Assembly (NCBI GenBank): GCA_040752355.1
Contig: JBFMHE010000003.1
Coordinates: forward strand, 62,001 to 126,000
Reading direction: 5' to 3'
Length of the DNA stretch: 64,000 nt
Origin: Nitrospirota bacterium
GTDB lineage: Bacteria; Nitrospirota; Thermodesulfovibrionia; Thermodesulfovibrionales; Dissulfurispiraceae
Under the pieces are notes generated by a model, which searched no databases, was not told where the DNA came from, and was given only the letters and a program-made list of their open reading frames with translations. Every line of letters begins with the position of its first letter. The stretch's first letter is position 1. Shown here piece after piece: positions 7,166 through 20,616 of this stretch. A program made the translations under genes and the position numbers.

Positions 7166-8848
7166 ATGTGCGGGATTGCCGGCATAGTAACCTACTCGCG
7201 CAGTCATGAGGGGGGAGCAATGGTTAAGGGCATGCTCAGTAAGATGCCCTATCGGGGACCCGATCAGTCGGGAGTGGAAACCCGCGATAATGTCACCTTG
7301 GGAATGGCTCGTCTGAGCATTATTGACAGAGAACACCACAAAATTCCCTATGCGGATGCCTTCGGAAAGTACATGATTGTGTATAACGGCGAAATCTATA
7401 ACCATGACACGCTGAAACACTCCTTGAGATCAAGGTGCCATTTTCAAACAGCTTCAGATGCAGAAACCGTGCTCTACAACTTTATGGAGAAAGGCATCGA
7501 CTCGCTGCATGATTATAACGGGATGTACGCATTTGCCCTCTATGATTCCGTCAATAAAGAACTATATATCGCAAGAGATAAAACGGGAGAGAAACCCTTA
7601 TATTACGCTTATACTAAAGACTACTTCGTCTTCGCTAGTGAAATGAAGTGTTTGCTTCAGGTTGTTCCTGCCGAGCTTAACAACGATGCGGTGTCCTATC
7701 GCGCCTACGAGTTTACTGTGGGCGCTGAAACACTTTTTAAGAACATTTATTCACTGGGGCCGGGGGAGTATATACGAGTGAAGGATGGCAGGGTTTCAGT
7801 CCAAAGCTATTGGAAAGTTTGGGATAAACTGGTAGACGTCAAGACCGATGAGAAGGGAATACTGGATGATCTGGCAGAGCTTCTAGAGGACGCGATTCTT
7901 TTAAGGACAAAAAACTGCGCGCATAAGTATTGTGCATTTATCAGCGGCGGCGTGGACAGCTCCCTTGTGGCAAGTATTGCAAAACCTGACTATATCTTTA
8001 CTGCACATTATGATTACGACGATTTTGACGAACTCGACTATGCGAAGCTATTGGCACGGCACATTCAAAGGGATCTCGTTGTCATTACCCCCACAAAGGA
8101 AGATTTTATGAGGACCCGCAACGATATTATCTATCACCTCGACACTCCCTGTACGTGGACCAGTTTTACTCTTTGGATGCTGTTTTCTCGCACAAAGGAA
8201 GAAGGGCTGAAGGTGGTAATGACAGGTGACGGTGCTGATGAGATATTCGGGGGGTACCATAGATATCATCTCCTGCATCACGATGAGCAGATTCATAAAC
8301 TGGAGGCGATGCAGCAATACAGCTATTTAATCAATAGGTATTACGGCAGTCCAGTGGATAGATACTTACGACTGGTCAATAGACACGAGAATCAATATGA
8401 CGAGAGGATAAACGGGTATCTTCGGGAGTCCTTGAAGTTCTACTACGAAAAAGCAAAGGGGGATGTCATCCATTTCATGGGACTCAATGACTTTTATTCC
8501 ACGATGCAGGTTTTATTGCAGATGGCCGATCGGTTGAGCATGGCATTCAGCATTGAAAACCGATCGCCCTTTTTGGACTACCGCCTCGTCCAGTATGCGT
8601 TTTCTATGCCTTCAAAATACAAGATAAGGAACGGTATAACAAAATGGGCGCTCAAGGAAGTATCTAAAAAGTTCATCCCTAAAGAAATCGCCAGCAGAAT
8701 CGACAAGCGGGGATTTTCCGCACCTGTTAATAAGTGGTTTGGCTGGGATAAAAATGGAAAATACGATAGGAGAGGTTATAAAGATATCGTATTTGATGAT
8801 TGGATAAAAAGATTCGGGGTGTCTAAAAATGAGATGTCTATTATGTAA
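7166..8848 (+). CDS. Asparagine synthetase-like amidotransferase 1 (AsnB family)
   Basis: A 560-residue class II glutamine amidotransferase/ATP-dependent synthetase. The nucleophile Cys2 follows the initiator Met (MCGIAGIV). Glutamine-site residues are present in ARLSIID, NGEIYN and SDAET. The synthetase domain has its PP-loop SGGVDSS at about 260 and GDGADEIFGGY downstream. Genuine AsnB makes asparagine. In glycan loci such homologues (for example WbpS of Pseudomonas aeruginosa) are linked to amidation of uronic acids, which I infer here from context. It follows the dehydrogenase-like gene by 2 nt, and the next gene overlaps its end by 20 nt. It is somewhat shorter than the other homologues in the window. 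Confidence 0.87.
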   Translation: MCGIAGIVTYSRSHEGGAMVKGMLSKMPYRGPDQSGVETRDNVTLGMARLSIIDREHHKIPYADAFGKYMIVYNGEIYNHDTLKHSLRSRCHFQTASDAETVLYNFMEKGIDSLHDYNGMYAFALYDSVNKELYIARDKTGEKPLYYAYTKDYFVFASEMKCLLQVVPAELNNDAVSYRAYEFTVGAETLFKNIYSLGPGEYIRVKDGRVSVQSYWKVWDKLVDVKTDEKGILDDLAELLEDAILLRTKNCAHKYCAFISGGVDSSLVASIAKPDYIFTAHYDYDDFDELDYAKLLARHIQRDLVVITPTKEDFMRTRNDIIYHLDTPCTWTSFTLWMLFSRTKEEGLKVVMTGDGADEIFGGYHRYHLLHHDEQIHKLEAMQQYSYLINRYYGSPVDRYLRLVNRHENQYDERINGYLRESLKFYYEKAKGDVIHFMGLNDFYSTMQVLLQMADRLSMAFSIENRSPFLDYRLVQYAFSMPSKYKIRNGITKWALKEVSKKFIPKEIASRIDKRGFSAPVNKWFGWDKNGKYDRRGYKDIVFDDWIKRFGVSKNEMSIM

Positions 8849-9647
8849 TTCTCGCAAAAGTGAGTTTGTTTGCATATACAAGGGGGAGGATATTTATCTC
8901 AGGAAACTGAACATCGCCAATTTCGCCCTGAAGTGGTTTAGATGCGCAAAGTGCGGCGTTTACTTTAGTCAGCAATATAAGAATATCGAGAAGGTATATG
9001 ATAATGAGCTTCTCTACGACGCTCAGTTTGATAAAGAGAGTATAAGGATCAGATACGAGAAGATAATGAGTCTTGATGAGAGAAAATCGGATAATGCGTT
9101 GCGAGTAAAGCGCGTAAAGAGCTTTCATTCCGCATACGTGGAGAGCGGCGTGAGGGGGAGAAAACCCTTCAATGTTCTTGATATCGGAGCGGGCATGGGA
9201 GTTTTTTTGGCAAAGTTTCTCGATAGCGACTATAAAGGGTATGCATTGGAAGTCAACAGGGTAGCTGCACAGCATATACGTGAGGAGCTGCGGATTCCGG
9301 TTTATAGGGATTACGTCCAGAATTTGAAGACGGGCCAAAAGTTTGATTTGATCACCATGAACAAGGTTCTTGAGCATATAAAGCGGCCTATTGATGTTCT
9401 GAGGTCGATTCAAACGGTGTTGCATAGGAACGGCATTATTTATCTTGAGCTTCCTGATACGAGAGGTTATGAACTGGACGGCGCAGCGTGCGATGGATTT
9501 TCGTCCGGCCACTATATGGTATATAATCCGCAATCGGTGCTGTATCTTCTGGATCAAGCCGGATTCGACATTTTACATTTAAATCGGGTATGTGAGCCAA
9601 GTGGTAAAAAGACCATCTATTCGTTTGCAAGGAGAAAACTCTCATGA
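8829..9647 (+). CDS. SAM-dependent methyltransferase with N-terminal zinc-binding knuckles
   Basis: A 272-residue class I methyltransferase. Cys pairs C3/C6 (RCLLC) and C39/C42 (RCAKC) form a probable zinc ribbon, as in many sugar C-methyltransferases. The SAM loop is VLDIGAGMGVFLAKF, followed by acidic motif II and FDLITMNKVLEHI. The family usually acts on TDP- or CDP-activated sugars in deoxysugar pathways. Both ends overlap their neighbours (20 nt and 4 nt), so it is fully embedded in the operon. The methylated substrate is unknown. Confidence 0.83.
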   Translation: MRCLLCNSRKSEFVCIYKGEDIYLRKLNIANFALKWFRCAKCGVYFSQQYKNIEKVYDNELLYDAQFDKESIRIRYEKIMSLDERKSDNALRVKRVKSFHSAYVESGVRGRKPFNVLDIGAGMGVFLAKFLDSDYKGYALEVNRVAAQHIREELRIPVYRDYVQNLKTGQKFDLITMNKVLEHIKRPIDVLRSIQTVLHRNGIIYLELPDTRGYELDGAACDGFSSGHYMVYNPQSVLYLLDQAGFDILHLNRVCEPSGKKTIYSFARRKLS

Positions 9648-10801
9648 AATACTGCAAGAGTTGCATTTTGCCTGATACGAGACCTGGTATTGAGCTGAAC
9701 AGTGAGGGGATCTGCACCGCCTGCATCGGTGCGCGGGAAAAGAAAGAGATTATTGATTGGAAGAAAAGAGAAGCTGATCTGAAGGAAGTTCTTGAGGCAT
9801 ATAAGAGTAAAGGCGGAGGATACGACTGTATTATTCCGGTGAGCGGAGGAAAAGACAGCACATGGCAGGTTTATACGCTCAAGGAAAAATATGGGTTAAA
9901 GCCCCTCTGCTTGACATACCGTTGCAAATATCGCACGAAGCTGGGACAGGAAAACCTTGAGAATATGATCGATATCGGGGTTGACCATATGGATTTTACC
10001 ATCAATCCCTCAGTCGAAAAGAAGTTCATGCTGAAGAGCTTGGAACAGAACGGCTCGGTCTCTCTAGTCGAGCATATGGCGATCTGGGCAATAACGCTCA
10101 GGATGGCAGTAAAGCTCGGCATAAAGCTTGTTATATGGGGTGAGAACCCGGGGCTTGAGTACGGCGGAGGAAAAGAAGACAGAGAGAACCCCTATTTGAA
10201 CTATGATTGGATAAGGAAGTATGGCGTCACGAATGGAACCTTTGCACATGATTGGGCAGACGAGGATCTTACCCTTGAGGAACTCTATCCTTTCACTCTT
10301 CCCTCGGAGGAAGAGCTTGCAGCATCGAAAATACAGTCTATTTTTCTCGGATGGTATCTGAAATGGGACCCGCTTGAGGTTGCAAACTTTTCCAGATCCA
10401 TCGGATTTAAGTGGGCAGAAAAACCAGTATTGGGCTATTATCCCTTTGCGGATTTGGATTGTGACTTCATAGTGACCCATCATTTCTTTAAATGGTATAA
10501 ATTCGGTATTACGCGATTATGGGATAATCTGGCTATAGAAATAAGAAACAAACGGCTCACCAGAGAGGACGCAATCAAGTATATCAGAGAGAACCAGGAA
10601 GCTATTCCTACACGCCAGATCAGGAATCTCTGCACGTTTTTAGAGATACCGGAAGAGAGGTTTTGGGGAATCGTTGAGAGTCACAGAAATCATACAATAT
10701 GGAAGCAGGATGCATATCGGCAGTGGTACATACCAGAATTTAAAAATGAATTTGGATTTTGGCTGGACAACTATACGCAGAGAGGAGATTGTGATGAGTG
10801 A
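9644..10801 (+). CDS. N-acetyl sugar amidotransferase (WbuX/PseA/WbpG family)
   Basis: A 385-residue PP-loop ATPase. The N-terminal zinc ribbon uses C4, C7, C24 and C27 (YCKSC, CTAC). The PP-loop is SGGKDS at residues 67-72. GENPGLEYGG and the C-terminal tryptophan-rich part match the family that converts an acetamido group of an amino sugar into an acetamidino group (WbpG in P. aeruginosa, PseA in Campylobacter). WbpG-type enzymes commonly receive ammonia from HisH/HisF homologues, and neither gene is in this window. It sits between two methyltransferase genes with 4-8 nt overlaps, close to asparagine synthetases that could supply ammonia, although that link is only inferred. Confidence 0.9.
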   Translation: MKYCKSCILPDTRPGIELNSEGICTACIGAREKKEIIDWKKREADLKEVLEAYKSKGGGYDCIIPVSGGKDSTWQVYTLKEKYGLKPLCLTYRCKYRTKLGQENLENMIDIGVDHMDFTINPSVEKKFMLKSLEQNGSVSLVEHMAIWAITLRMAVKLGIKLVIWGENPGLEYGGGKEDRENPYLNYDWIRKYGVTNGTFAHDWADEDLTLEELYPFTLPSEEELAASKIQSIFLGWYLKWDPLEVANFSRSIGFKWAEKPVLGYYPFADLDCDFIVTHHFFKWYKFGITRLWDNLAIEIRNKRLTREDAIKYIRENQEAIPTRQIRNLCTFLEIPEERFWGIVESHRNHTIWKQDAYRQWYIPEFKNEFGFWLDNYTQRGDCDE

Positions 10802-11477
10802 GCTGGCAAATAAGGAGTATTACGATAGAGCATACGAAAAAGGGTATGGCATCATGTTCCCTGAGAGCCCTGTCATCCGCTGGTATGAGCGGGTGCTGAA
10901 ATATGAATTGGGAATTGATGGCAGTGATGGAAAGGTGATGCTTGACTTTGGCTGTGGCAATGGTACCCACTCATTGTTTTTTAGAAGCAAGGGGTTTGCG
11001 GTCTATGGTTCCGATATCGATGAAAGGGCAGTTGAACTGGCGAAGACCAGGATGAGGGATATAGAAAATCACTTTTATACGATGAGGGTGCTTGAGGATA
11101 TAAGAGATGTCTTCAAAACTAAATTTGATGTAATTTTAGCAAATCAGGTTTTGTATTACCTCGATAGCAGAAATCTCGAAACGACACTGCAGATGTTTGA
11201 TAGTATGTTAAACAAAAATGGAATAGTTTTCTTTTCCATGGTGAGCACAAAGCATTACCTCAATAATCATGTGGTGGAGACACGGGAGGACGGCTTCAGC
11301 CTGGTCAGACTTAAAGGCAGACTGGAAGGCGAGCTGCTTGTAAATTTCACGAAAGACTTGGATCACTTGAAGCAGAAATTCGCCGTTTTTGAGCCGCTTT
11401 ATCTGGGGCATTATGATTATTGCATGTTGGAGGGCGATTCTCGCCATCATTTTGCATTTACCGGGCGGAAGAGATGA
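10794..11477 (+). CDS. Class I SAM-dependent methyltransferase
   Basis: A 227-residue methyltransferase. The start at 10794 has AGGAG about 7 nt upstream and overlaps the previous gene by 8 nt; the longer frame from 10674 would lie inside that gene. The SAM loop is VMLDFGCGNGTHSLFF, with YGSDIDERAV as motif II. It probably methylates a sugar or nucleotide sugar from this operon. The stop overlaps the ATG of the small unknown protein (ATGA), so the two are coupled in translation. Confidence 0.83.
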   Translation: MSELANKEYYDRAYEKGYGIMFPESPVIRWYERVLKYELGIDGSDGKVMLDFGCGNGTHSLFFRSKGFAVYGSDIDERAVELAKTRMRDIENHFYTMRVLEDIRDVFKTKFDVILANQVLYYLDSRNLETTLQMFDSMLNKNGIVFFSMVSTKHYLNNHVVETREDGFSLVRLKGRLEGELLVNFTKDLDHLKQKFAVFEPLYLGHYDYCMLEGDSRHHFAFTGRKR

Positions 11478-11818
11478 AATTGGACCTGAAAGAGACTCCT
11501 CGATGTTTTGAAGTGAAAGGATTCAAAGTAAAGGATTACGGAAAGCTCTATCTCGAAGACGGGGAAATGGTCTCCTTTGTTACAAAAGGCAACAGGGAGT
11601 GTGACTTTACTGCGAAAGACTGGGGGTTCTATCTTGGCCCCTCATTAAACAGTCGATTGAAAAGAGAGGGATTTAAAGTGGCTCTCGTCATAAATGAAAG
11701 TAATCAACTCTATGTGCATGCTGTAGAGAAAGATAAGATTCCTGAGTACAGGAGTTACTTAAAAACAAATCAGGACTTAAGAATTCTCTGTTGGCTCGAT
11801 GAATGGATGATTGATTAA
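11474..11818 (+). CDS. Small protein of unknown function, paralogue A (paired with asparagine synthetase 2)
   Basis: A 114-residue protein I do not recognise. It is clearly related to the 119-residue product at 13696. Both have an R-x-F start, KD-x-G, an LE-x2-E beta segment, a strongly conserved WGFYLG-x-S-x-N block, RL-x2-x-GFK-x-ALV, a LY-x-x-VE strand, and a final CWLDEW. There is no signal peptide or membrane helix, so it is probably cytoplasmic, with alternating strands. It starts inside the stop of the methyltransferase gene and ends on the A of the ATG of the next asparagine synthetase. This tight pairing, repeated with the second copy, suggests an accessory, carrier or docking subunit of the synthetases. 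The start at 11474 is preferred over 11420, which overlaps more. Confidence 0.75.
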   Translation: MKLDLKETPRCFEVKGFKVKDYGKLYLEDGEMVSFVTKGNRECDFTAKDWGFYLGPSLNSRLKREGFKVALVINESNQLYVHAVEKDKIPEYRSYLKTNQDLRILCWLDEWMID

Positions 11819-13683
11819 TGTGTGGGATTTGCGGATTTATAGCAGAGGGCAACCTTTCCTTCGACCATATCCTGCAGGATATGTCAGAATCCATGAAGCA
11901 TAGAGGCCCCGACGATCAGGGTATTTTTATTGATACCCTCAGGAATAAAACCATAGGACTGGCACACCAGAGGCTAAGCATAATAGATCTGAGCAGAAAA
12001 TCCCGACAGCCAATGCTGGACGATGCGGGAGAGGTTGCTCTGATTTTTAACGGAGAGATCTATAACTATATCGAGTTGCGTACAGAGCTTCAACGAAAGG
12101 GCTACGACTTCATTTCCACCGGTGACAGCGAAGTCATTCTTTGCGCATACAAGGAATGGGGAGTAGGGGCCTTTAAGCGATTCAATGGTATGTGGGCGAT
12201 TGCCCTGCTTGACAGGAAAAGGCAAAAGCTCATTCTCTCGAGGGATAGATTCGGGAAGAAGCCGCTCTACTACTACAAGAACGGCACGGATTTTATATTT
12301 GCGTCAGAGATCAAGGCTCTCTTCCGTTACCCGAAGGTTCCCCGAGAGCCTAATTATGAAAAGGTATACCGATATATAACCAAGAGCTATCGCTATGTGG
12401 ACATTGACGATTACTCTTTTTTCAAGGGGATAACACAGGTCCCCAAGGGCTCTCTGATGACAGTAGATATGAATCAGAGAAGCTCCATCAGGAAATACTG
12501 GAGCCTCAACACAGCGGTAAACGAGAATATTACCGAGGATGATGCTGTGGAAGGATTTCGGGAGCTTTTCATTGATGCGGTTAAAATCAGATTGCGCAGT
12601 GATGTAAAGGTCGGCGTCATGTTGAGCGGAGGAATGGATTCCACATCAATAGCTTCTACGGCGGCAAAGTTGTTAAACGGGAATGTGGAGGCTTTTTCGG
12701 GAATATCAAAGGAAACTATCTCCAAGTTTGATGAAAGCGAATATATAAATGCGGTTGTGGAAGATACAAAGATTCATCATCATTATGTAAGACCTGATAT
12801 CCCTAGCTTTTTTGAGACACTGGACGAGATGCTGTCATTTCACGACGAACCGATCTGCACTGATACCTGGTATATGATGTATCTGATAAACAAGAAAATA
12901 AAGGAAAGCGGCTTCAAGGTGATTTTAAATGGACATGGAGGCGATGAAATACTCGCTGGATATTATCCCGGATTTTATCAAAATTTCTACGATTTATTCG
13001 AAGCGGGTCGAATTCAAGATCTTCTGGATGAAATACAGGCCTTCTCAAGCATTCACGGGAAAAACACTGATGAGATAGGAAAGTACATAGCTTTTATCGC
13101 ACAGACGAAGCAGGACAAGAGCCTTGAAATGAAGCGTTTTAAGGATTATAGGAATGTTGTCAACGAAGACATAAGAGAGAGATATGAGAAAAAGATCGTA
13201 TTCCGCTCTCCGTACGCGGATAATCTGAGCAACCGGCTTTATATCGAGCTTTTTTACGATGCCGTTCCCCCTCTGCTGAGGGCCGAGGATCGGACAACTA
13301 TGACCCATTCAATTGAGTCGCGCCTCCCTTTTCTTGATTACCGGCTGGCGGAGTTCTGCTTCTCCCTCCCCAATTCATTTAAAATTAGAAACGGAACGAA
13401 TAAATGGATTCTTAGAGAATCTATGAAAGGGATATTGACAGAAAAGGTAAGAGAGCGCAAGGATAAGCTTGGCTTTATTACTCCAGCTGACGAATGGTTC
13501 AGAGCAATGAGTAGCGATATCCGTGCTTTATTCAATTCCAACGCTTTCAAAGGTAGGGGACTGTTTGATATCAAGGAGATAAATAAAATGTTCGATGAGC
13601 ATCTTGGAAATACGGAAAATCATCAGATGCTTATTTGGCAGCTGCTTAATCTTGAACTTTGGTTTAAAAAATATTTTGAGTGA
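11818..13683 (+). CDS. Asparagine synthetase-like amidotransferase 2 (AsnB family)
   Basis: A 621-residue protein with a complete class II glutaminase (Cys2 in MCGICGF, HQRLSIID, FNGEIYN, GDSEV) and an ATP-dependent synthetase domain with PP-loop SGGMDS at 270-275 and GHGGDEILAGY. Its length is normal for AsnB. The first base of its ATG is the last base of the stop of small protein A, and small protein B follows after 12 nt. The C-terminal NHQMLIWQLLNLELW resembles that of synthetase 3 (14034), supporting duplication of a small-protein-plus-synthetase unit. The natural acceptor is more likely a sugar carboxylate than aspartate, judged only from context. Confidence 0.87.
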   Translation: MCGICGFIAEGNLSFDHILQDMSESMKHRGPDDQGIFIDTLRNKTIGLAHQRLSIIDLSRKSRQPMLDDAGEVALIFNGEIYNYIELRTELQRKGYDFISTGDSEVILCAYKEWGVGAFKRFNGMWAIALLDRKRQKLILSRDRFGKKPLYYYKNGTDFIFASEIKALFRYPKVPREPNYEKVYRYITKSYRYVDIDDYSFFKGITQVPKGSLMTVDMNQRSSIRKYWSLNTAVNENITEDDAVEGFRELFIDAVKIRLRSDVKVGVMLSGGMDSTSIASTAAKLLNGNVEAFSGISKETISKFDESEYINAVVEDTKIHHHYVRPDIPSFFETLDEMLSFHDEPICTDTWYMMYLINKKIKESGFKVILNGHGGDEILAGYYPGFYQNFYDLFEAGRIQDLLDEIQAFSSIHGKNTDEIGKYIAFIAQTKQDKSLEMKRFKDYRNVVNEDIRERYEKKIVFRSPYADNLSNRLYIELFYDAVPPLLRAEDRTTMTHSIESRLPFLDYRLAEFCFSLPNSFKIRNGTNKWILRESMKGILTEKVRERKDKLGFITPADEWFRAMSSDIRALFNSNAFKGRGLFDIKEINKMFDEHLGNTENHQMLIWQLLNLELWFKKYFE

Positions 13684-13695
13684 AGGAGAACACTC

Positions 13696-14055
13696 ATGAG
13701 GGCGGATTTTAGAGAGCAGCCGAGGGAATTCGTACCGCTCGAGGGGATTAACCTTAAGGATATGGGGAGCATCTTTCTGGAGCATAATGAACAGGTGACG
13801 TTTACTACTGCATCAAATAAAAACAATGATATCGTAAGGACAGAATGGGGTTTTTATCTCGGCAATTCGATTAATTGGAGGTTGAGAGAACAGGGATTCA
13901 AAACTGCTCTTGTCGTCAGTAGGGCAGGTAATGAGCCACGACTTTATATTAATTTGGTAGAGCAAGAGCGAATGAATGACTTTTTTGATTATTTGAAGCA
14001 CTATCATTCTGAACTCGTTTGCTGGCTTGACGAATGGTTTTTAACGCACCAATAG
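13696..14055 (+). CDS. Small protein of unknown function, paralogue B (paired with asparagine synthetase 3)
   Basis: A 119-residue paralogue of the product at 11474. It shares WGFYLG-x-S-I-N, RLREQGFK-x-ALV, a LY-x-NLVE strand and the terminal CWLDEW, with a few extra residues in loops. GGAGAA precedes the ATG. It shows no signal, membrane helix or known catalytic motif. The next gene begins 22 nt inside its 3' end. Conservation concentrates in a central Trp-Gly-Phe-Tyr block and an acidic/aromatic C-terminus, which suits a binding or scaffold role. I cannot name the function. Confidence 0.75.
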   Translation: MRADFREQPREFVPLEGINLKDMGSIFLEHNEQVTFTTASNKNNDIVRTEWGFYLGNSINWRLREQGFKTALVVSRAGNEPRLYINLVEQERMNDFFDYLKHYHSELVCWLDEWFLTHQ

Positions 14056-15815
14056 CAGATATATTTTTTTGCATTTCAAAAGAGGAAGTGCCCACTCAGG
14101 GCGATGTAATAGTCCGGCGGGAGAGGGGACGATATCTTTATTTGAAAGGAAATCATTTTGAAGACAAACAGTACATAGTGCTTCTCAATGGTGATCTTTA
14201 TGCCAGTGAGTTCAACGGAGCAACCGACATCGAAACACTCATACGGGGATACAAGAAGTGCGGTGACGACTTCCCGCACAAAATTGAAGGTGATTTTTCC
14301 TTTATCCTGTATGATAAGGCGAATGATGAGGTAATTGCAGGAAGAGATAAGTTTGGCGTCAAATCTCTTTTCTATTATAAAGATGAAATGATGCTCGCGC
14401 TATCGAGCACGACGGCATCACTTTTTGAATGCCTCCCCATCAAAAAAGAGCCTAACCTGAGCAAGAACATACTTTATGTGGGGAGTCATTATAGACATTT
14501 TGATGCGATTAGAGAAGACACCTTTTTTGAAAACATAAAGGCGATACGACAGGCCCATATAATTAAATGTAAAAACGGCAACCTGGCTGAACACCCCTAT
14601 TGGACAATAGAGCTGCTTAATCTGGAGGGGAAAACCCAGCACGAGTTGGGAGAAGAATACCTTTCCCTTCTGACAGAAAGCATTGAGAAGAGATTGTCGA
14701 AGAGCAATAACCCTGCCTTCATGGTGAGCTCCGGAATGGACTCCTCCAGCATTGCTGCATTATCATCCCGACTGAGAGGGGAGCGCGTACCCATATTCAC
14801 GACAGTTTTTCAAGAGACAACTGAATACAATGAGGCGGATGAAGTGGTGCCTGTCGTTACAAAGTTTGGCAAAGAATGGCATAGGGTCAGTGTCGAGCCT
14901 GAACGGCTTATACAGGATCTCAATGAGATTCTGAAGCTCGCCAATGAGCCTTTTTATACGGTTACCCAAATGATGCATTACTATTTAACTCGGGAGGTGA
15001 AAGCGAGGGGCTTCGATACGTTATTTGGAGGAATCGGAGGGGATGAGGCGAATTGCGGAGAAATTGAGGAGTACCTGTTCTTTTTTGCGGACCTTAAATA
15101 TGGAAATAATGAGGAACGCTTAAGAAAAGAGATTAACGGCTGGATAAAAAATCACTCCCATCCTCTCTATCCGAAGAGCTATGAAATAGCCCATGATTAT
15201 TTTGTTAAACACATTAATTTTAATCAGCCCGGCGTGAATTATTTAGATAAGGAGCGATTCGGCAAATATTTGGGAGTTTTTAGGAGAGACTTCTTAGAGG
15301 CGCATTTATGTGCGCCAATTCTTGACCATCCTTTTCCAAGCTACTTGCTGAATAAATTATATCAAGATCTTTATTATGAAATAATCCCTTGTGTGCTGAA
15401 GGCAGAGGAGTTCAATCTCAAGCGGTTTAAGGTACAGGGGAGAATGCCTTATCTGGACGGAATGGTTATGCAGTACGGCTTCTCCATACCGGTGGAGATG
15501 AAATATAGCGCTGGCGCCAATAAGGCAGTTTTACGTGCTGCCATGAAAGGGATACTACCGGATGAGACAATAGAGAATCTTCAGAAGAAGGGATGGAATG
15601 CCCCTTTTAATGAGTGGCTCAAAATTCATTTGAAAGAGTCAATAATGAAACTATTGGAGAATCCTTCAAAGCGGCAGCAGGCCATATATAATATTGAAGA
15701 TATCCGAGCCCTCTTTAGTGAGCATTTAAGAGGAACGGCTAACCATATGATGTTTTTCTGGCAATTCCTGAATTATGAGACATGGTATGGCATCCATTTT
15801 GGCGAGGATATCTGA
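14034..15815 (+). CDS. Asparagine synthetase-like protein 3, glutaminase nucleophile missing
   Basis: A 593-residue homologue of AsnB. The N-terminal domain keeps the Ntn-hydrolase fold landmarks in altered form (LLNGDLYASE for FNGEIYN, GATDIET for the Asp loop, IAGRDKFG). However, it starts MVFNAP and has no Cys after the Met. The nearest Cys is residue 13, and no start codon lies directly before it. The synthetase half keeps a PP-loop variant SSGMDS at 232-237 and GGIGGDE. Cys-less relatives include beta-lactam synthetase and lasso-peptide cyclases, which activate a carboxylate but do not use glutamine. It could use free ammonia, ammonia from synthetase 2, or another amine. It overlaps small protein B by 22 nt. 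Confidence 0.82.
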   Translation: MVFNAPIADIFFCISKEEVPTQGDVIVRRERGRYLYLKGNHFEDKQYIVLLNGDLYASEFNGATDIETLIRGYKKCGDDFPHKIEGDFSFILYDKANDEVIAGRDKFGVKSLFYYKDEMMLALSSTTASLFECLPIKKEPNLSKNILYVGSHYRHFDAIREDTFFENIKAIRQAHIIKCKNGNLAEHPYWTIELLNLEGKTQHELGEEYLSLLTESIEKRLSKSNNPAFMVSSGMDSSSIAALSSRLRGERVPIFTTVFQETTEYNEADEVVPVVTKFGKEWHRVSVEPERLIQDLNEILKLANEPFYTVTQMMHYYLTREVKARGFDTLFGGIGGDEANCGEIEEYLFFFADLKYGNNEERLRKEINGWIKNHSHPLYPKSYEIAHDYFVKHINFNQPGVNYLDKERFGKYLGVFRRDFLEAHLCAPILDHPFPSYLLNKLYQDLYYEIIPCVLKAEEFNLKRFKVQGRMPYLDGMVMQYGFSIPVEMKYSAGANKAVLRAAMKGILPDETIENLQKKGWNAPFNEWLKIHLKESIMKLLENPSKRQQAIYNIEDIRALFSEHLRGTANHMMFFWQFLNYETWYGIHFGEDI

Positions 15816-15839: not shown

Positions 15840-16955
15840 ATGAACATGAAAGAGAGCTCGATGCATCCCGGAGCTGTACAGGCAGCGGATCGTGTAACCT
15901 ACGTCATTGCTGAAATAGGCATTAATTATAACGGATTGCTGGAGAACTGCTACAAAATGATTGATGCTGCCGCTGAGGCCGGCTGCAACGCAGTAAAGTT
16001 TCAGTTTTTCAGAGCAAAGGATTTATATCCAAGAAGTGCTGGCGTGCTTGATTGGAAAGATCAGGAGAAAGAGTATTCGTACGATATTTATAAGGCAGTA
16101 GAAAGTTTTGAGCTGCCAGAAGAGTGGGTTGCCACGCTGATAACCTATTGCAGGGTCAGAACATTGGACGTCTTGTCGTCAGTATTTGATGCCGAGGGGC
16201 TCGACTTCCTGATGCAAAAAGGATTAAAGGGGATTAAGCTCGCCTCATATGTAGTGACGAATCTGCCACTCATAGAGCATTGCGCAAGGACAGGCATGCC
16301 TATTATTATGTCGACAGGGGGTGCCACTCTCGCTGAAATATCAGAAGCGGTTGACGTCGTGAGGAAATATCATGGAAATCTGTCACTGCTCCACTGCTCT
16401 ATACAATATCCAACGCCTCTTGATTGCTGCAATCTGGGAATCCTGAAGACATTGCAGTGCGCATTTCCTGGAATCCCGATTGGGTATTCTGATCATACTG
16501 CAGAAGTCTCCCGTGCTCCGGTGCAGGCCGTGTATCTCGGGGCTCAAATCATAGAGAAGCATATAACAATGAGTAAATCCATGGACGGTCCTGATCATTT
16601 TTTTGCGCTTGAGCCTCAAGAATTAAAGCGAATGGTAGCTGATATCAGGCAGGCGGAAGCGGACTATCGGAGAGGAAACGTTACTATCGATGAAACCCTT
16701 TACGGAAGCAGCGCGAGGATCGTATATCCTCACGAACGGTATCTGAGAGAGTTTGCTTTTATGCGGCTTTTCGCGCGAAGGAATATCAAGAAGGGTGAGA
16801 TAATAGCTGCTAACGATATAGCTATTCTCAGGCCGGGTAAGAAAAGACTTGGACTGGAACCGAAGTATTTTTACCTCTTTGAGGAGCACAGGGTAACGGC
16901 TAAAAAAGATATATCTTTTGAGGATCCTATTACCTGGGATGCTATTCTGGAGTGA
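15840..16955 (+). CDS. neuB: NeuB-like nonulosonic acid synthase, altered motif
   Basis: A 371-residue member of the sialic/legionaminic/pseudaminic acid synthase family, which condenses phosphoenolpyruvate with a 6-carbon amino sugar. It has the TIM barrel (IAEIGIN, VKFQFF, STGGATL, LLHCSIQYPTP, IGYSDHT, GPDHFFALEP) and a C-terminal SAF antifreeze-like domain (about 300-350). Metal-ligand His residues in LLHC and SDHT are kept. The usual N-H-N-G near the N-terminus reads N-Y-N-G (Tyr30), and the segment normally like ASxEITN reads ASYVVTN. These changes suggest an unusual substrate. The next gene overlaps by GTGA. Confidence 0.85.
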   Translation: MNMKESSMHPGAVQAADRVTYVIAEIGINYNGLLENCYKMIDAAAEAGCNAVKFQFFRAKDLYPRSAGVLDWKDQEKEYSYDIYKAVESFELPEEWVATLITYCRVRTLDVLSSVFDAEGLDFLMQKGLKGIKLASYVVTNLPLIEHCARTGMPIIMSTGGATLAEISEAVDVVRKYHGNLSLLHCSIQYPTPLDCCNLGILKTLQCAFPGIPIGYSDHTAEVSRAPVQAVYLGAQIIEKHITMSKSMDGPDHFFALEPQELKRMVADIRQAEADYRRGNVTIDETLYGSSARIVYPHERYLREFAFMRLFARRNIKKGEIIAANDIAILRPGKKRLGLEPKYFYLFEEHRVTAKKDISFEDPITWDAILE

Positions 16956-17944
16956 GCAAAATTCTCTTCAGAGCAGATGCCAACCCGTCCATTGGGACTG
17001 GTGATTTAGTATCTCTGATACATCTTTCGCAGTATTTCGAAAAAAAAGGATGGGAGACGCATTTTATCATCCGGGAGTACAAATCTGGACTTTTGCTTGC
17101 AGAGAAATACCGGTTAGGAAATGTCAAGGTCCTTCCGCATTCCATAGCAGCCAGTCAGGAAGTCGAAGCAATAAACCAGTACATCGAACTGAACAATATA
17201 AAAGTAATCGTTATGGAGATAACAGAGCGACCTCTTTCTGAATACGAGGGGATAACCGATCAGGCGGTGAGGGCATGTGTGTGTTTCGACGCTCTCATCC
17301 CTCGTCATCTGGATCTGGTCGTCAATTGGGATGTCACTGCTCCTACATTATATGAAAAGTCACCCTTCTCTAAAACAAAATTCCTGTTAGGTTCGGAGTA
17401 CGTGATTCTGCCTATGGAGTTTGATTATGGCAGGATCGAGCAGAGGGTCTATAGAGAGACACGGGACAAACTCTTGATAGCTATGGGGGGAGCTGATGAG
17501 CTCAATTTTACCCAGAAGGTCGTCGATGTGCTGATACAAAATGCAATAGCTATGGAGCTTAAGATAATCATTGGATCAGGATATGAATACCGATATGAGC
17601 TCGAAAAGAGTCTGGACGCCTCACCATTGCGGTATGAAATTAAACAAAACGTAACCCATATGTTTGATGAATACATGCAGTGCGACATTGCGATTGGTGC
17701 GGGAGGATTGACTTCATATGAGCTGGTTGCAACGAGAACGCCAGCTATTCTCATCGCTACGTATGAGCATCAGATTGCGCGATGCATTTATTTCGAAAAG
17801 GCTGGATGGGCACTATACCATGGGTTCAGGAAGGTAAGTCCATCGGCCCTGCTGGAAGGATTGCAACAACCTATCTTAAGAGAAAGAGGACCGTATTTCA
17901 ATGGATGCGAGAAAATTTATGAAGCTGTCGCTTCTTGTAGATAA
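16952..17944 (+). CDS. PseG-like nucleotide-sugar hydrolase/glycosyltransferase-fold protein, His-to-Asp in motif
   Basis: A 330-residue protein with the GT-B fold of PseG, the enzyme that removes UDP from UDP-2,4-diacetamido-2,4,6-trideoxy-altrose before NeuB/PseI. The N-terminus ILFRADANPSIGTGD aligns with the PseG RADAS-x2-IGxGH block, but the catalytic His is Asp18. The C-terminal AIGAGGLTSYELVATRTPAI block is typical of the family. The start is a GTG overlapping the neuB stop. Position between a NeuB homologue and a formyltransferase supports a role in a nonulosonic-type pathway. The changed residue makes hydrolysis of the standard substrate doubtful. Confidence 0.75.
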   Translation: MSKILFRADANPSIGTGDLVSLIHLSQYFEKKGWETHFIIREYKSGLLLAEKYRLGNVKVLPHSIAASQEVEAINQYIELNNIKVIVMEITERPLSEYEGITDQAVRACVCFDALIPRHLDLVVNWDVTAPTLYEKSPFSKTKFLLGSEYVILPMEFDYGRIEQRVYRETRDKLLIAMGGADELNFTQKVVDVLIQNAIAMELKIIIGSGYEYRYELEKSLDASPLRYEIKQNVTHMFDEYMQCDIAIGAGGLTSYELVATRTPAILIATYEHQIARCIYFEKAGWALYHGFRKVSPSALLEGLQQPILRERGPYFNGCEKIYEAVASCR

Positions 17945-18585: not shown

Positions 18586-19863
18586 GTGGAAACGCTTGCC
18601 CTTTTAGGAGGAGAGCCAGTCCTTCGTCCTCTCTTGCCGCACTATAATTCCATAGGGCAGGATGAACTGGAAGGGGTTCTGGATATTATAAAGTCCGGAA
18701 CGCTCTCCGGCTTTTACGGGAGCTGGGGAGATCAGTTTTTGGGCGGACCAGCCGTACGTGCATTTGAGGGAGCATGGTGCGAGCGGTTTGGCGTCAACCA
18801 TGCAATATCAATGAATTCGGCTACTTCGGGGCTATTTGCCGCTATGGGGGCCATCGGAGTCGCCCCCGGAGATGAGGTTATCGTTCCGCCGTATACGATG
18901 TCTGCAACCGCCATGGCGCCTCTGATCTATGGCGGCATCCCTATATTTGTTGATATTGAGCCTGATACGTTTTGTCTTGATCCCCGGAAAGTTCGTGAGG
19001 CGATCACTTCAAAAACGAAAGCTATCCTCGCGGTGAATTTGTTCGGACACCCCGCGCCGCTCCATGAACTGATGGAGATTGCCCGAGAGTACGGGCTCAT
19101 GCTGATAGAGGACAATGCTCAGGGTCCGACGGCAAGAGAGCATGGCCGATATGCCGGCACGATTGGCCATATGGGGATCTTCAGCCTCAATTACCATAAA
19201 CACATTCATACTGGCGAAGGGGGAATGTGTGTGACAAATGATGATCAACTGGCGCTGAAACTACAGATGATCCGGAATCACGCTGAAAATATAGTCGAGC
19301 ATGTCCCTGTTGAGAATATCTCAAATCTTATAGGGTTTAATTATCGCATGACGGAATTGAGTGCTGCCGTTGGTATTGCTCAGCTCAAAAATATGGATCT
19401 TCATGTTGAGAGGAGAAAGATTATAGCTCAGCGGCTTACTGAAGGCATAGAGGGGATGACCGGCCTGACCCCTCCTAAGGTGAGAATGGGCTGTCATCAT
19501 GTTTATTACTTGTGGGCCTTGCGTGTTGACGAGGACGTCTTAGGGATTTCGCGACGCATGTTCAGTCGCGCGCTTGCTGCAGAGGGGTTCCCGCATTTTA
19601 CCGGGTATGTCAGGCCGCTGTATATGTTACCCCTCTTCCAGCAACGTATCGCTTTCGGGTCGCAGGGGTATCCCTTCTCTCTGTCAAATGTTCATTATCG
19701 CAAGGGGCTTTGTCCTGTTACCGAGCTGATGCATGAGAAGGAATTGCTCTGTTTTGAAACCTGTTTATATGATATTGATGAGCAAAAGATCGAGCTCCTC
19801 GTAAAAGCTCTTCGCAAAGTATACGGCAACCGTACTAAGCTTGCTAACCTGTCAGAGGAGTAG
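18586..19863 (+). CDS. DegT/DnrJ/EryC1/StrS-family aminotransferase
   Basis: A 425-residue PLP enzyme with a GTG start (16 nt after the formyltransferase). The PLP lysine is K205 in SLNYHKHIHTGEGG. SATSGLFAAM, PPYTMSATA and IEDNAQGP are further family blocks. The N-terminal LGGEP-x-LRP and the GSWGDQFLGG insertion place it in a different branch from the aminotransferase at 4684. It probably aminates a keto sugar made elsewhere in the pathway. The cytidylyltransferase follows after 12 nt. Confidence 0.85.
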   Translation: METLALLGGEPVLRPLLPHYNSIGQDELEGVLDIIKSGTLSGFYGSWGDQFLGGPAVRAFEGAWCERFGVNHAISMNSATSGLFAAMGAIGVAPGDEVIVPPYTMSATAMAPLIYGGIPIFVDIEPDTFCLDPRKVREAITSKTKAILAVNLFGHPAPLHELMEIAREYGLMLIEDNAQGPTAREHGRYAGTIGHMGIFSLNYHKHIHTGEGGMCVTNDDQLALKLQMIRNHAENIVEHVPVENISNLIGFNYRMTELSAAVGIAQLKNMDLHVERRKIIAQRLTEGIEGMTGLTPPKVRMGCHHVYYLWALRVDEDVLGISRRMFSRALAAEGFPHFTGYVRPLYMLPLFQQRIAFGSQGYPFSLSNVHYRKGLCPVTELMHEKELLCFETCLYDIDEQKIELLVKALRKVYGNRTKLANLSEE

Positions 19864-19875
19864 AGGAGGAACTAT

Positions 19876-20616
19876 ATGCCGCGCATTATCGCCAGCATTG
19901 AAGCACGCATGGGATCATCACGACTTCCGGGTAAAGTACTCTCGGATATATGCGGGCAGCCGGCGCTTACACGACTGGTCCGCCGCCTGAGGAGGTGCCG
20001 CACCCTCGATGGAATTGTATTGGCCACTTCAACGAAACCGTGTGACGATGCTCTGGAGACATGGGCCAAGGCGGAAGGAGTGGCCTATCACCGCGGTAGT
20101 GAGGATGATGTTCTACAGAGAGTTGTTGAAGCACAGCGTAAAATGAAATCGGATATTGTTGTGGAAGTCACAGGGGATTGCGTGCTCCTTGACCCGGAGC
20201 TTATCGATTGGGGCGTTGCCACATTACTGGAAAATGACTGTGATGTCGTTACCAACGTACGCAAGCAATCCTTTCCGATGGGACAGGATATCCAGGTTTA
20301 TCGCTTGCACGATCTTGAACAGGTTGAACATGATATAACAGATCCGGCAGTACGTGAGCATGTCTCCTTGTATTTTTACGAACATCCTGAAAAGTACAAA
20401 GTTATACATTTACTGGCCCCTGCCCGATGGCATGCGCCTCATTTACGATTTCAATTGGATTATCCCGAGGACTATCGCTTCATTAATGACATCTATCGAA
20501 GAATGGAGCCTTTGCATGGTGATGCTTTTGGGATCGAGGAAGTTATGATGTTGCTCAAGCAGGAGCCGGAGCTTGCTCTCATCAATGCCCGTTGCGAGGA
20601 GAAGTCTGTTCGGTGA
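19876..20616 (+). CDS. SpsF-like cytidylyltransferase family protein (second copy)
   Basis: A 246-residue nucleotidyltransferase related to the one at 3118. ASIEARMGSSRLPGK is a near-canonical nucleotide-binding block including the Gly-Lys that the first copy lacks. EVTGDCVLLDP and LDYPEDY are further conserved segments. GAGGAGGA precedes the ATG. It probably activates a sugar acid or amino sugar with CTP, consistent with NeuB-like and PseG-like enzymes upstream. The oxidoreductase start overlaps its stop by GTGA. Confidence 0.83.
   Translation: MPRIIASIEARMGSSRLPGKVLSDICGQPALTRLVRRLRRCRTLDGIVLATSTKPCDDALETWAKAEGVAYHRGSEDDVLQRVVEAQRKMKSDIVVEVTGDCVLLDPELIDWGVATLLENDCDVVTNVRKQSFPMGQDIQVYRLHDLEQVEHDITDPAVREHVSLYFYEHPEKYKVIHLLAPARWHAPHLRFQLDYPEDYRFINDIYRRMEPLHGDAFGIEEVMMLLKQEPELALINARCEEKSVR

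Follow-up and report, generated by a model that had tools for sequence, protein, structure and literature searches.

A small-protein family marking a WbpG lineage in nonulosonic-acid gene clusters

Two genes for proteins of about 115 residues, denoted small1 and small2, each directly precede a gene for a homologue of the asparagine synthetase AsnB in the window (the whole 64-kb stretch of DNA analyzed here). This arrangement raises the question of whether the small proteins are partners of AsnB or of another enzyme encoded in the same operon. The original prediction favored AsnB and placed the system in the context of a glycan acid.

Gene content of the operon

The operon runs from AsnB1 (7166–8848) through a zinc-ribbon SAM methyltransferase (8829–9647), a WbpG/WbuX N-acetyl-sugar amidotransferase (9644–10801), and a further SAM methyltransferase (10794–11477), whose start was set at an internal ATG and which overlaps small1 by 4 nt. 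The small1 stop and the AsnB2 start have one base in common at position 11818 (small1, 11474–11818, 114 aa; AsnB2, 11818–13683, 621 aa). After a 12-nt gap, AsnB2 is followed by small2 (13696–14055, 119 aa), which overlaps AsnB3 (14034–15815, 593 aa) by 22 nt; these coordinates confirm the predicted spacings. Further downstream lie a NeuB/PseI-type nonulosonic-acid synthase (15840–16955), a PseG-like hydrolase (16952–17944), a formyltransferase-like gene, a DegT-family aminotransferase resembling PseC/LegC (18586–19863), and a sugar gene at 19876 that appears cytidylyltransferase-like by eye. All genes given here with both end coordinates are on the forward strand. A nucleotide-sugar-dehydrogenase-like gene is located 5' of AsnB1.

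The operon is a nonulosonic-acid (legionaminic/pseudaminic-like) cluster, in agreement with the predicted glycan-acid context. Since neither the NeuB homologue (284.9 and 229.9 bits) nor the PseG-like hydrolase (124.2 bits against 153.55) reaches the equivalog cut-offs, the cluster is assigned at the nonulosonic-acid level and no single sugar is named. The combination of NeuB, PseG-like hydrolase, aminotransferase, amidotransferase, and methyltransferases resembles the clusters for legionaminic and pseudaminic acids bearing acetimidoyl and N-methyl groups, which contain Legionella ORF8 and Campylobacter PtmH/PseA and from which the window differs in these sub-cut-off scores.

The small-protein family

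In a pairwise comparison, small1 and small2 share 40% identity over 117 residues (E 3e-33), far beyond chance, which bears out the predicted paralogy of the two proteins. Small1 is 51–77% identical to eight relatives from a scan of genome contigs, found in Magnetominusculus, three other Nitrospirota, an Omnitrophota MAG, two unclassified MAGs, and a Pelagibacteraceae genome. Small2 is a divergent second member, and a second copy of this kind was seen in no other searched genome. The family occurs in 10 of 396 Nitrospirota genomes, and a broader profile returned the same 10; MAG incompleteness limits such gene-presence counts. It is also present on an Azospirillum brasilense plasmid. This taxonomic range is a lower bound, since a single pattern-based scan supplied the relatives found beyond the phylum.

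Neither small1 nor small2 has a significant match in Pfam, NCBIfam, PHROGs, PADLOC, or PDB sequences, consistent with the prediction of an unfamiliar family. The lone PHROG match (1.4e-4) involves the Pelagibacteraceae protein (locus L010) only, and that PHROG has no assigned function. Judged from these sequence comparisons, the small proteins constitute a real family without a described relative in the databases searched. Many residues are invariant in the alignment, including PR, WG, S-N-RL, and WL. Two AlphaFold2 runs on shallow alignments (10 sequences) yielded pLDDT values of about 55–56, and a Foldseek search with such a poor model (pLDDT about 55) returned nothing at E ≤ 0.001; two MbtH-type chains appeared at chance level, and a test for an MbtH-like partner found no Pfam or PDB sequence match. 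A LysW-type amino-group carrier was set aside, as the alignment (A3) shows neither a zinc ribbon nor a conserved glutamate at the C-terminus. A defense system was rejected after PADLOC gave no match, as was a phage origin after the viral contigs and phages searched yielded no relative.

The WbpG lineage and the neighbors of the small genes

HisH and HisF are the classical partners of WbpG, and the neighborhoods read here agree. The 63 WbpG loci compared comprise the places above the cut-off in the phylum sample together with plasmid WbpGs, and a gene was counted as a partner if it lay on the strand of WbpG at a distance of up to 3 kb. HisH and HisF accompany WbpG at 36 loci, a small gene and AsnB at 18, AsnB only at three, and none of these at six. 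The small gene occurs together with HisH/HisF at none of the 63 loci (Fisher 1.8e-9), a value that overstates the exclusion because one clade carries the pattern and the loci are not independent events. AsnB lies within 3 kb at 18 of the 18 small loci versus one of the 36 HisH/HisF loci, and Fisher values on this comparison are to be read with the same restriction.

In the WbpG tree, the 18 small-type WbpGs and two AsnB-only WbpGs form one clade with 100/100 support, nested among the HisH/HisF-type WbpGs. The window WbpG scores 343.9 bits against TIGR03573 (cut-off 203.2), which places it in this family, and keeps the tetracysteine zinc motif (CKSC...CTAC) and an SGGKDS PP-loop. The PP-loop is kept in all WbpGs of the clade. 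The tetracysteine motif, known from LpNASAT, which converts an N-acetyl to an acetimidoyl group (PMC10607449), is kept in all except those of L005 and L010, whose N-termini are disrupted or partial. The Pelagibacteraceae WbpG frame (L010:4714-5831) is apparently split in two by a frameshift or an assembly error. In L071, an AsnB-only member of the clade, the contig ends just where the small gene would be. In L086, a clade WbpG is accompanied by AsnB with neither a small gene nor HisH/HisF, and its genome (G156) has no small-family match; the small protein is thus not strictly required.

Neither the 64-kb window, apart from one chance match (E 0.5), nor the 3 kb around each small-type WbpG yielded HisH/HisF. 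Local neighborhoods were read since ordinary HisF matches the WbuZ model, which makes WbuZ counts alone of limited use. A dedicated HisF homologue was not seen in most of the searched genomes. In a genome-wide search of seven small-bearing genomes, every HisF-like match, where there was any, adjoined a HisA-like one, and the HisF-type matches in small-only genomes are no more numerous than is usual for their families. Two genomes, that of the window (L076) and G211 (L031), also have, at a separate locus, a second WbpG that is accompanied by HisH/HisF. L076 (G000:C1:175753-188790) has HisH and HisF directly 3' of WbpG and represents an internal classical counterpart of the window locus. The small gene is a marker of one monophyletic WbpG lineage, which resides in nonulosonic-acid clusters, has no adjoining HisH/HisF, and always has AsnB in the operon.

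WbpG is directly 5' of the small gene in 17 of the 18 loci, with a spacing of −4 to +169 nt and often a 4-nt overlap; the window is the exception, in which one methyltransferase intervenes between WbpG and small1. Across the 396 Nitrospirota genomes, the small gene adjoins WbpG in all 10 carriers. Homologues of the small protein were not found widely away from AsnB genes, as AsnB lies within 1.6 kb of WbpG at all 18 loci, though it often does not adjoin the small gene. The predicted pairing of the small protein with AsnB therefore stands at the level of the operon and only in part as direct adjacency, WbpG being the invariant neighbor. An adapter or specificity subunit of an AsnB ligase, to which WbpG would be adjacent merely through a common pathway, is unlikely, and the WbpG association fits the data better than this predicted role. 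AsnB is indeed directly 3' of both window small genes and of those in seven relatives (L004–L010), overlapping the small gene or lying a short gap away from it, and the presence of AsnB in all 18 operons also speaks for such a subunit. However, WbpG separates the small gene from AsnB in eight loci, another gene does so in L003 (a methyltransferase) and L024, and the linked AsnBs fall in two distant clades, whereas the WbpGs form one.

Methyltransferases are further recurrent neighbors. Seven loci of the Nitrospira type (a putative label, given from kinship, for family f29 of the phylum sample) and the Azospirillum locus share the order AsnB-WbpG-small-methyltransferase, in which the methyltransferase is of the zinc-ribbon kind. 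In L029 (L029:1771-3030), the small protein and a zinc-ribbon methyltransferase are encoded in one reading frame as a natural fusion. The window methyltransferase at 8829 belongs to the same family and is 32% identical (E 2e-36) to the one 3' of the Azospirillum small gene. These arrangements, including the methyltransferases 3' of the small gene in L003 and directly 5' in the window, together with the many invariant residues, are consistent with the small protein being an enzyme or carrier for the acetimidoyl or N-methyl step with the methyltransferase as its partner. We regard this role as improbable, as the small genes of L004–L010 stand between WbpG and AsnB with no adjoining methyltransferase.

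AsnB homologues and possible functions of the small proteins

AsnB1 is of the Cys2 type and is 65–67% identical to the AsnB in the corresponding position of L004 and L009. AsnB2 has a full Cys2 glutaminase and a PP-loop synthetase domain; it begins with MCGI, contains the PP-loop LSGGMDS, and qualifies as a glutamine-dependent AsnB (TIGR01536, 458.5 bits, cut-off 267.1). It is 49–54% identical to the AsnB 3' of the small gene in L003–L009. AsnB3, which begins with MVFN and has the PP-loop SSGMDS, aligns to GATase_7 only from profile position 47, scores below the same cut-off (187.5 bits), and does not qualify as glutamine-dependent. The predicted retention of a full glutaminase in one synthetase and its loss in the other is therefore correct, as AsnB3 has no Cys2. 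Cys2-less AsnBs recur in small-bearing clusters, at L010:6355-8208, L022:21353-23170, and L030 from 11704 onward as well as at 14034-15815 of the window.

The original prediction also held that a two-gene unit of small protein and AsnB had duplicated. AsnB2 and AsnB3 share 28% identity (E 3e-74), and the other window AsnBs are at least as near AsnB2 (30% and 29%). AsnB3 sits in a separate Cys2-less clade with Azospirillum, Nitrospirota, and Pelagibacteraceae members (support 100/99, long branches), and in a small-protein tree with weak support, small2 does not group with small1 and its close relatives. A recent duplication of the cassette is unsupported because AsnB3 belongs to this separate, old clade and small2 lies outside small1's close relatives; an ancient duplication is possible. 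On A. brasilense plasmid p5, a NeuB-AsnB-WbpG-small-methyltransferase cassette occurs twice in the circular record, close to each of its ends (L022 and L103), with several identical protein accessions between the two, and the second copy looks broken.

As our best, though tentative, explanation, the small protein may serve as accessory subunit to a WbpG that works independently of HisH/HisF in the synthesis of a nonulosonic acid; AsnB could be the nitrogen source or act as a separate amide synthase. WbpG would carry out its usual reaction, in which an N-acetyl group is turned into an acetimidoyl group at the expense of ATP, and the small protein would be a dedicated subunit in place of the classical HisH/HisF. 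Speculatively, it could dock the enzymes or gate the WbpG pocket, while the Cys2-type AsnB could release ammonia from glutamine or form a further amide on the sugar that WbpG modifies. AsnB3, having no glutaminase, would depend on another source of ammonia or of an amine. N-methylation of the acetimidoyl group may be the task of the zinc-ribbon methyltransferases, with the action of ORF8/PtmH on legionaminic acid as the precedent (PMC3766260, PMC13306086).

That the small protein and the Cys2-type AsnB jointly form a nitrogen-delivery module replacing HisH/HisF for this WbpG lineage, in which a dedicated small protein would couple AsnB to a second ATP-pyrophosphatase enzyme and so pass on glutamine-derived ammonia, seems doubtful. 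In AsnB, ammonia is normally tunneled to the synthetase site of the same enzyme, and the synthetase motifs of AsnB2 are intact, which also counts against the accessory-subunit explanation; we know of no precedent for AsnB feeding WbpG. Two further observations run counter to that explanation: the HisH/HisF of L076 in the same genome could act in trans, and the fusion in L029 could make the methylation step the real partner of the small protein.

A WbpG lineage that uses free ammonium, with AsnB separately making a sugar carboxamide and the small protein acting as a stabilizing lid or regulator, would accord with the full synthetase motifs of AsnB2, the dehydrogenase-like gene 5' of AsnB1, the absence of a small gene from L086, and the synthesis of uronamides in known surface sugars by AsnB-family proteins such as WbpS/WbqG (PMC7468200), but is quite improbable, as it leaves unexplained why AsnB occurs at one of the 36 HisH/HisF-type WbpG loci versus every locus of the small-type clade.

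Comparison with known systems delimits what is new in this locus. WbpS/WbqG (TIGR03108) is likewise an AsnB-family enzyme within a surface-sugar cluster (PMC7468200), whereas AsnB2 scores 392.7 bits against a TIGR03108 cut-off of 816.9 and is accompanied by WbpG, NeuB, and a small protein. As in the B1/C pair of lasso-peptide systems, a small protein adjoins an AsnB homologue; however, the neighbors here are sugar genes, and no PqqD-type match was obtained for the small proteins. A lasso-peptide-type system was rejected, as AsnB2 scores 364 bits against NF033535 (cut-off 525) and no small-protein family matches. A further likeness is to WbpG/WbuX with HisH2/HisF2 (WbuY/WbuZ), with which the window WbpG shares family membership above the cut-off, the tetracysteine motif and PP-loop, and the kind of sugar cluster (PMC10607449), although it is accompanied by small proteins and AsnB instead of HisH/HisF and belongs to the separate clade described above.

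The new element is a WbpG lineage without its known HisH/HisF partners and with a family that matches nothing in the libraries searched, which suggests an unrecognized nitrogen-feeding route into unusual surface sugars. If confirmed, the association would give this unassigned family a biochemical role and provide a marker for acetimidoyl or amidated nonulosonic acids in Nitrospira-type bacteria, Magnetominusculus, Omnitrophota, Pelagibacteraceae, and Azospirillum. It would also open the ammonia supply of the WbpG family to a direct test. Positions 1-46000 of the window, which hold the sugar genes, have a low GC content (41–51%), and the remainder is near 60%; a transposase-like ORF is located at 1067-2101 within the low-GC stretch.
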